Of a DNA stretch of 64,000 bases, positions 2,969 through 31,781 are shown in pieces (the first letter of the stretch is position 1; each line of letters opens with the position of its first letter). Source of the DNA: Microbulbifer celer (GTDB lineage: Bacteria > Pseudomonadota > Gammaproteobacteria > Pseudomonadales > Cellvibrionaceae); NCBI RefSeq assembly GCF_020991125.1, contig NZ_CP087715.1:434001-498000 (forward strand), written 5' to 3'. A program made the position numbers and the translations under genes. Under the pieces are notes generated by a model. It was not told the origin of the DNA. It saw only the letters and a list, made by a program, of their open reading frames with translations, and made no database searches.

Positions 2969-3020
2969 TCCTCACCTTCCATTCAGTTCGGGATAAATAC
3001 CTGAAGCCGAATGAGAAGGG

Positions 3021-3126
3021 CAGGTGGCGGGGATTCACTTTTGAAAGCGTCGGCGACAGGGATGTCGCCGACGCAGCGTACAGGGATGTATTTACAGCGG
3101 TTTCAAAAGTGAATACCCGGTGCCTG
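3021..3126 (+). repeat. Palindromic element, subfamily 1, copy A
   Basis: The outer arms 3021-3046 and 3101-3126 are inverted repeats with 4 mismatches in 26; the inner 14 bp (3033-3046 with 3101-3114) are perfect. The 54-nt core (3047-3100) holds an 11-bp perfect hairpin with loop AGGGAT (3047-3074) and a second short hairpin, TAC-AGGGAT-GTA. The core is nearly identical to that of the copy at 31633-31744, while the arms are different. It lies between pnp and its terminator. Confidence 0.8.
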
Positions 3127-3170
3127 ACCGCCACCGTACTTTGTTGAAAGGTGCGGGGGCGGATCCAAGA

Positions 3171-3198
3171 ACGGTGGCTACAGGCCACCGTTTTTTTT
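3171..3198 (+). terminator. Rho-independent terminator downstream of pnp
   Basis: ACGGTGG (3171-3177) pairs with CCACCGT (3185-3191) around a 7-nt loop, and eight T residues follow. It ends transcripts from the rpsO-pnp unit about 40 nt before the next gene. Confidence 0.85.
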
Positions 3199-29052: not shown

Positions 29053-29190
29053 GGCGAAGGTGTCGATACCGGGTGCGGTCTTGCGAGACCTTCAAAAACA
29101 GGGATGTTTTTGCAGAGCCCCCATGGATGGGTTGAGGGGGGACGCCTAGTTCGTGTCTCGCAAGATCACCCCCGGTAGCGGCGCCGCCAC
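29053..29190 (+). repeat. Palindromic element, subfamily 2, copy C
   Basis: The arms 29068-29089 and 29155-29176 are inverted repeats (19 of 22 positions pair). The core has a CAAAAAC-AGGGAT-GTTTTTG hairpin and a CCC-ATGGAT-GGG hairpin. About 130 nt are homologous, in reverse orientation, to 30205-30329. Differences between the two copies in the left arm are matched by complementary differences in the right arm. Confidence 0.8.
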
Positions 29191-30204: not shown

Positions 30205-30329
30205 GTGGCGGCGCCGCTACCGGGTGGGCGTTTGCGGGACACGCCGTGAACCCATCCATGGGGGCTCTGCAAAAACATCCCTGTTTTTGAAGGTCCCGCA
30301 AACGCCCACCCGGTATCAACGCCTTCGCC
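30205..30329 (-). repeat. Palindromic element, subfamily 2, copy D
   Basis: A perfect 22-bp inverted repeat (30219-30240 with 30293-30314) encloses a core that, on the minus strand, has CAAAAAC-AGGGAT-GTTTTTG and CCC-ATGGAT-GGG hairpins. It is homologous to copy C (29053-29190) in reverse orientation but lacks about 11 nt of its core. It fills nearly the whole gap between the moxR and VWA genes. Confidence 0.85.
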
Positions 30330-31547: not shown

Positions 31548-31632
31548 GATGGTGGATGCGCTAACACTTATTCACCCTGCAAAACCTGCTTGTCCGGCAT
31601 GATTTCGGTCGAAGTAGAGCAGTGAAAATTGA

Positions 31633-31744
31633 AGGCCGGGCACCGGGTGGATGTTTTCAGGAGCGTCGGCGACAGGGACGTCGCCGCCGCAGCGTACAGG
31701 GATGTATACACAGCGGTCCTGAAAACATCCACCCGGTGCCCGGC
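31633..31744 (+). repeat. Palindromic element, subfamily 1, copy B
   Basis: A perfect 29-bp inverted repeat (31633-31661 with 31716-31744) encloses a 54-nt core (31662-31715). The core differs from that of copy A (3047-3100) at only a few positions: hairpin GTCGGCGAC-AGGGAC-GTCGCCG and hairpin GTAC-AGGGAT-GTAT. The arms are unlike those of copy A in sequence. It lies between convergent genes (VWA protein and POT symporter). Confidence 0.88.
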
Positions 31745-31781
31745 CGCCACTGAGAGAAATTTCAAAGCACCTGCCGACAGA

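Follow-up and report, generated by a model that had tools for sequence, protein, structure and literature searches.

A mobile repeat of about 163 nucleotides in Microbulbifer celer whose sense-strand RNA hairpin is predicted to bind CsrA

The stretch of Microbulbifer celer DNA analysed here (the window; 64,000 nt, contig NZ_CP087715.1, positions 434,001 to 498,000 of the forward strand) contains four members of one repeat family, recognised by a covariance model that we call R1. Two of them, copy A (3015..3134, forward strand; 123.8 bits, and by alignment) and copy B (31631..31750, forward strand; 139.8 bits), belong to class A and lie where a first, sequence-only reading had placed them, each with a full core of 120 nt that is larger than the element then described. 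The other two are of class B: one on the reverse strand at 30205..30326 (84.6 bits; folding z −9.2), with the loops AGGGAT and ATGGAT, and one on the forward strand at 29056..29190 (50.3 bits; folding z −5.2), which has an insertion of the GGGGGGACGCCTAGTTCG type beside hairpin 2 and was left out of the 144 copies counted below. An insertion of the GGGGGGCGCCTAGCTCG type 3' of hairpin 2 recurs in several classes, at 29056-29190 in the window and at 3251525, 4101464, 4109034 and other places in the genome. In a further set of copies (genome positions 675996, 3554051, 162883, 2635643 and 3244360, and locus L105, 2713-2870), a second small hairpin of the GGGGCCGAAGGCGCCG...CGGCCGG type is inserted into one of the GGA loops, which is thereby destroyed.

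Read from its 5' end, the 120-nt core opens with three unpaired bases and a 29-position arm, continues with hairpin 1 and then hairpin 2, and closes with the return arm and a GCCAC end. In copy A the 5' arm (3018..3046) stands opposite the 3' arm (3101..3129), both placed by fold and covariation, and between them lie hairpin 1 (3047..3074) and hairpin 2 (3076..3098), each with the loop AGGGAT and each placed by fold, covariation and a loop scan; an exact match to the SELEX consensus of CsrA (GTACAGGGATGT; consensus from PMC7652899) occupies 3078..3089, or genome positions 437078-437089. Copy B has its arms at 31634..31662 and 31717..31745 (fold and covariation), hairpin 1 with the loop AGGGAC at 31663..31690 and hairpin 2 with the loop AGGGAT at 31692..31714 (covariation and loop scan for both), and its exact consensus match at 31694..31705 (genome 465694-465705); all of these features lie on the forward strand. 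Conservation extends beyond the core from about −23 to about +20, as judged by positional information in 143 copies, and in copy A this corresponds to a conserved 5' tag of about 23 nt (2992..3014, forward strand) and a weakly conserved 3' tag of about 20 nt (3135..3154, forward strand), both of approximate extent. Sense-strand folding energies stand well apart from those of shuffled sequences (z −8.3 for copy A and −11.8 for copy B, with 0 of 200 shuffles as good), and the antisense strands fold about equally well (z −7.3 and −12.8), so that energy alone cannot choose the strand.

Copy A follows a gene identified as pnp by its PNPase domains and precedes an intrinsic terminator (3170..3198, forward strand), assigned from its sequence, the distances and the pnp domains. 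As 11 of the 12 closest genomes in the comparison have this pnp terminator, copy A sits between pnp and its terminator. The distance from the pnp stop codon to the terminator is 206 nt in M. celer and 211 nt in G042, where the copy is of class A', and 42-45 nt in nine close relatives; in the twelfth close genome, G039, the contig ends at this place, apparently within part of a class B copy. The gain at the filled site, 162-167 nt, fits the conserved extent of the unit, and from the conserved flanks together with these filled and empty sites we define the mobile unit as about 163 nt. When R1 was run over 30 of 31 pnp loci, it found a copy only in M. celer and G042; in a set of 80 named pnp loci, none longer than about 21 kb, the only copy with an R1 E-value below 1e-3 was in Marinobacter guineae. 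The gene at site B is VWA_CoxE-like, and R1 matches flank it, on either side, at 14 of 30 loci; 10 of the 11 closest loci have a match (M. celer and one partial match included), with class or orientation differing among them.

The family is far larger than the two copies first described. As a blastn query against its own genome, copy A finds 42 places, which rejects a recent two-copy duplication and a core confined to two places. R1 was built on 37 of the 40 copies then known, three with a 14-nt insertion being excluded, and it returns at least 147 matches among the best 150 of 2425 candidates scored, a few of these matches being reverse-strand echoes. After exclusion of such echoes, of duplicates and of three partial matches (L034 1-91, L008 3014-3100 and L252 1281-1348), at least 144 distinct copies were extracted from 100 loci, a floor, since copies drawn from the best 150 of 2425 candidates miss divergent ones. 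Simple scripted rules divide the 144 into 51 of class A, 34 of class A' and 59 of class B. The motif ACGRAGY occurs at a fixed place, −22/−21 relative to the core, in 35 of 143 copies; its rate in the window is far lower (0.02 per 100 nt), and 22 further matches to it lie 9-33 nt behind copies. Carriage as phage or plasmid cargo is rejected, as copy B is unmatched in plasmids or phages at E 1e-5, and two core patterns have no exact match in viral_contigs. We regard the description of the family as a dispersed, mobile and structured element as well supported.

Evidence for the structure comes from the arms. Within the genome they follow one consensus, GGCNRAGTGCYGGG....TTTTC, in which about 6 nt are hypervariable, and paired changes are scattered along them. 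The arms of each copy pair with one another, as stated earlier; to call the arms of the two copies unrelated overstates the case within this genome. Across 37 copies, standard pairs fill 96.3% of pair cells (83.8% when shuffled), both partners have changed in 26 of 47 pairs (mean of shuffles 15.2) and double changes occupy 232 cells (mean of shuffles 61.8), and 0 of 500 shuffles attain even one of the three values; the number of further pair types is equalled by 5 of 500 shuffles. Sliding the partner by one to three columns lowers pairing from 96% to 36-47%. At 37 loci from relatives the arm sequence differs much more than it does within the genome, with self-complementarity kept and, at 36 of the 37 (the exception is L069), at least 20 arm pairs retained in the minimum-energy fold. 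The covariation check that the sequence-only reading had proposed thus bears out its view that the structure and not the arm sequence is maintained, and other copies, which it had named as the place to look for arms that do not pair, keep complementary arms.

The mismatches that remain in the arms carry information about the strand. A G-T mismatch on one strand is an A-C mismatch on the other, so the ratio between the two reveals whether a single strand folds alone. On the sense strand of the 144 copies, the outer arm (pairs 4-10 and 13-18, with pairs 11 and 12 excluded because the consensus there is T-G/G-T in classes A and A') holds 79 G-T and 7 A-C mismatches, the inner arm (pairs 19-32) holds 15 and 14, and mismatches of other types number 105 in total; the outer-inner contrast has a Fisher p of 9e-6, which is indicative only, since the copies share ancestry, just as the shuffles and binomial tests used here overstate independence. 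With this excess, the outer arm appears to have been under selection as one strand, read in sense, in the way an RNA would be, and we take the pattern as indicating such selection. A symmetric double-stranded DNA cruciform, one of the three kinds of element proposed earlier, predicts equal numbers of G-T and A-C and is rejected; the other two proposals, a structured RNA candidate and a mobilised small element, have both held up.

The inner arm behaves differently, in that its hypervariable block shows all four Watson-Crick types with few intermediates of either kind, as if one arm had been copied from the other. At site B, where we took the copies of G002, G021 and G042 as orthologous, a reading of the arms by eye finds substitutions that come in pairs, the intermediates being a single G-T and a single A-C. 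Patterns of this kind would be expected of a passive selfish palindrome, in which template-switch (quasi-palindrome) correction at replication, and not selection, keeps the arms complementary: inner positions 19-32 include the most variable block, yet their mismatches are rare and unbiased, and the presumed orthologues at site B change in a coupled way with rare intermediates. The same correction would, however, erase the outer-arm wobbles at pairs 11 and 12 of classes A and A' and the outer-arm excess of G-T, and the loops and their spacing are kept across the class; we consider a purely passive palindrome very improbable. The contrast between outer and inner arms offers a natural test of how long palindromes keep their complementarity while their sequence changes.

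The loops AGGGAT and AGGGAC, already seen in the first reading, are recognised here as CsrA/RsmA-type ANGGAN hexaloops at a fixed spacing of 23-24 nt. As presented in PMC7652899, the CsrA-type loop is an ANGGAN hexaloop, SELEX-selected hairpins have mostly four or fewer pairs, the SELEX consensus is RUACARGGAUGU, and a CsrA dimer bridges sites separated by 10-63 nt, most favourably by more than 18 nt. Counting A(N)GGA(N) hairpin loops on stems of at least 3 bp, we find two in 132 of the 144 copies and one in the remaining 12; the GGAs of the two-site copies are 24 nt apart in 90 and 23 nt apart in 42, so that all 132 fall inside the published bridging range (PMC7652899). Six-base ANGGAN loops stand at both places in 79 of 144 copies, and a five-base loop at hairpin 1 in 53 of the 132. 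Hairpin 2 of the two-site copies carries mostly AGGGAT (74) or ATGGAT (51), and hairpin 1 carries AGGGAC (58), AGGAT (36), AGGAC (17), AGGGAT (16) or ATGGAT (5). The stem of hairpin 2 has 3-4 bp and that of hairpin 1 has 7-11 bp, the latter longer than the stems favoured among the SELEX hairpins. On the antisense strand, none of the 144 copies has GGA hairpin loops of this kind.

Exact matches to the SELEX 12-mer point the same way, since 33 of the 35 in the genome fall within the 144 copies, one more (155040) sits in a weaker R1 match, and a reversed-pattern control finds none in the same genome. The exact 12-mer is present in only 33 of the 144 copies, and it is scarce in some sister genomes that are rich in the element (five in G008, which has 84 R1 matches, and seven in G013). 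Where the best match of each other genome was compared, read on the strand with more loop sites, 32 of 34 had two such loops with GGAs 23-24 nt apart, as did all three loci from members of the class outside the order. On the strength of the loops and their spacing, our best reading is that the sense RNA of the element is a predicted CsrA binder.

Genomic placement bears on what such an RNA could do. With a gene caller and a terminator finder that were both purpose-written scripts, the overlap of a copy with a called ORF never exceeds 30 nt among the 144. The 116 regions in which both neighbours were called hold 141 copies and comprise 44 with both genes on the reverse strand, 40 with both on the forward strand, 27 convergent and 5 divergent; of 61 comparison gaps (100 nt or longer), 19 are divergent (p 2e-6), these gaps having been drawn from the loci around copies and from the window, the window gaps including those that hold its own copies. 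Divergent regions being rare relative to these gaps, copies lie mostly behind genes, and 111 of the 116 regions are behind at least one. Copies show almost no preferred orientation: of those standing alone in tandem gene pairs, 40 are sense and 25 antisense (p 0.08), and over all gene readings 92 are sense and 77 antisense (p 0.28). In 59 of 84 tandem and 27 of 27 convergent regions, a neighbouring gene would read at least one copy in sense. This near-random orientation weakens both a simple role in the 3'UTR and a genome-wide sponge, and we reject a plain sense 3'UTR element on that ground. Nor does the element qualify as an intrinsic terminator, for its core ends in GCCAC without a T-run directly behind it, and the pnp terminator is a hairpin of its own behind copy A. 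A scripted scan finds no terminator-like site on either side in 142 of the 169 readings.

Placement behind genes would nevertheless suit an mRNA 3'-end element whose very stable arm blocks exonucleases or aids the ends of convergent transcripts, the loops being minor. Besides the scarcity of divergent regions and the 111 regions behind a gene, copy A lies between the pnp stop codon and the terminator, and stability does not depend on orientation, so that near-random orientation is allowed. Stability alone, however, would not fix the loop sequence, the spacing and the strand, and the T-run is absent directly behind the core; we think this explanation decidedly unlikely.

Near-random orientation also brings to mind a mobile hairpin of single-stranded DNA, in the manner of REP/BIME sequences or of IS200/IS605 derivatives, in which a transposase dimer would read the twin loops at replication and any RNA role would be incidental. 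Two copies occur together in 25 of the 116 regions, in all 25 as inverted pairs, resembling BIMEs; copies keep clear of called ORFs, the unbiased inner arms suggest copying at the DNA level, and a folded single strand of DNA would tolerate G-T over A-C just as RNA does. On the other side, a search of the genome with Y1_Tnp (PF01797), the sole transposase family searched, returns one protein only, at 26.5 bits, and its 3.3-kb locus (L041, G000:C1:3528239-3531565), which adjoins a PP2C-type protein phosphatase gene, contains no R1 copy; moreover, the loop consensus of the element is a known protein-RNA target. A RAYT-mobilised REP is accordingly rejected as the simple answer, and the wider reading as a single-stranded DNA hairpin seems to us unlikely.

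The family is widely spread. R1 matches 28 of 38 near genomes, M. celer included, in the covariance-model search that had been suggested at the outset, and several sister species have at least 95 matches each. Scans of the order and the class, which used stricter filters than the scan of 38 genomes, find R1 in 49 of 145 genomes (36 of 91 genera) and in 31 of 185 genomes, respectively, M. celer counted in both.

The presumed partner is present in the host. The M. celer genome has one CsrA gene (Pfam CsrA, 90.3 bits), whose product aligns without gaps over 57 residues to PDB 1vpz, a 'carbon storage regulator homolog' that we take to be Pseudomonas RsmA. Among element-bearing genomes of the order and class, 39 of 42 have CsrA, although in G144 it is a fragment of 23 residues only, and the three without a match are 67-88% complete; 16 of 18 element-negative genomes have it as well, and with CsrA nearly universal in the class, its co-occurrence with the element proves little. 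Within the genus, no CsrA match was found in G018 (92 R1 matches) or G019 (3 R1 matches). In G008 the csrA gene abuts a run of 1401 N and is cut by masked bases, and masking may by analogy lie behind the missing gene in G018 and G019; a loss of CsrA in element-rich genomes is rejected on the evidence of the G008 gene beside masked DNA, a verdict from which G018 and G019 stand apart. Most sister genomes of the genus have a single CsrA family gene, and in some the family is multiplied (12 in G003, 5 in G004, 9 in G006, 7 in G009, 19 in G010 and 6 in G014); these genomes have few R1 matches (1, 1, 2, 4 and 11) or, in G006, 55 low-scoring ones. Since the genomes with multiplied genes probably form a single clade, they are not independent instances of the inverse relation, and CsrA-paralogue number as a cause of low copy number is rejected as confounded.

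Taken together, these observations lead us to a reading that we consider probable, if only slightly so: the element is a mobile repeat of about 163 nt whose sense RNA hairpin is predicted from its sequence to bind CsrA and to serve as a sponge or as a 3'-end mark. The repeat lies in intergenic DNA behind genes, and where a copy is transcribed in sense, its RNA would fold into the long arm, a junction and two hairpins whose A(N)GGA(N) loops lie 23-24 nt apart, so placed that one CsrA/RsmA dimer could bridge both loops of one element. Copies read in sense would then capture CsrA, jointly as a scattered sponge that titrates the protein, or would mark the 3' end of the host mRNA. A genome-wide CsrA sponge is a bold extension of this reading. 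In its fullest version, which we judge unlikely, a transposable element has turned into a distributed CsrA sponge on unrelated 3' ends, with well over a hundred mobile RNA hairpins in a genome, each able to bridge one CsrA dimer; copy number and transcription set the level of free CsrA, and the arms diversify by copying between arms, which keeps the fold and avoids uniform sequence. Were this so, each new copy of the element could add to the sponge. The CsrA hypothesis is testable in one organism, and selfish repeats may turn out to act as buffers of a global post-transcriptional regulator in many Gammaproteobacteria.

Several known systems resemble the element in part. The CsrA-sequestering sRNAs CsrB and RsmX-Y-Z likewise present GGA hairpin loops bound by CsrA, whereas the element has two sites per unit and 144 dispersed copies. 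REP/BIME sequences with RAYT proteins are, like the element, dispersed intergenic palindromes that sometimes form inverted pairs; the element differs in its longer core of 120 nt, in having two hairpins on an arm and in the single weak Y1_Tnp protein of its genome. By our reading of the alignment, the core ends are GAAGG and CCGCCAC, and the base of hairpin 1 carries CGTC in classes A and A'; GTAG and CGTC are the tags named for REP palindromes in the title of PMC3733652. MITEs share the short, non-coding mobile unit with inverted repeats, and differ from the element in that its inverted repeats vary between copies. We identified neither a parent transposase, within the Y1 family searched, nor a target duplication, intergenic flanks being too diverged between species, and the open-licence literature that we searched yielded no account of such a repeat family.

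Among RNA families, no Rfam model matches within the window at its gathering threshold, and the nearest matches below threshold fall on both strands. Ysr224 (RF02770), a named Yersinia sRNA, matches the antisense strand of copy A at 36.1 bits (E 4.7e-7) and that of copy B at 25.8 bits, far below its cut-off of 70; the Ysr224-like stretches lie on the reverse strand at 3044-3154 and 31660-31763, with the model matched over its full length. Two CCAUCC/CAUCCAUG segments in the Ysr224 consensus are complementary to the GGA loops, and from this we infer that the Ysr224 family represents the opposite strand of a related repeat, which may be a transcript in some hosts. Several miRNA models also match copy B below threshold, MIR8670 with a better E-value than RF01731 or Ysr224 in one search; in our view these are the kind of match that a long hairpin usually draws.

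TwoAYGGAY (RF01731) is the closest in architecture, with an outer stem that encloses two GGA-loop hairpins on the same strand as those of the element. It has AYGGAY at both loops, whereas the element often has AGGGAY with the GGA core kept. Copy B matches RF01731 on the sense strand over the full model (positions 1-168) at 31.8 bits, against a cut-off of 43, with an E-value of 0.021 (0.0058 for Ysr224 in the same search); copy A is unmatched up to E 10 and is nearer to Ysr224, on the antisense strand, than to TwoAYGGAY. The best RF01731 match in the genome reaches 32.3 bits, also below that cut-off, and none of 20 loci from relatives and M. celer passes the gathering threshold. Across the 38 genomes, 13 match RF01731 at E 0.01, and two, from other families of the order, exceed the cut-off (G027 at 47.6 bits and G029 at 43.5); the five best RF01731 loci, L299-L303, include two above the cut-off, and R1 matches each of the five with an E-value no higher than 7e-8. 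TwoAYGGAY appears as a table row in PMC2864571, with gamma-Proteobacteria among the listed hosts, and binding of CsrA was proposed from motif matches in PMC4333381; three further papers bring it into statistics on structure. In the passages of these papers that concern it, the CsrA link is a motif-based proposal, no function is tested, and it is not described as a repeat, in contrast to the high-copy dispersed repeat analysed here. In M. celer, a TwoAYGGAY-like architecture is thus found as a mobile repeat, with 144 examined copies in which the loop sequence and spacing are fixed and the GGA loops are confined to one strand.
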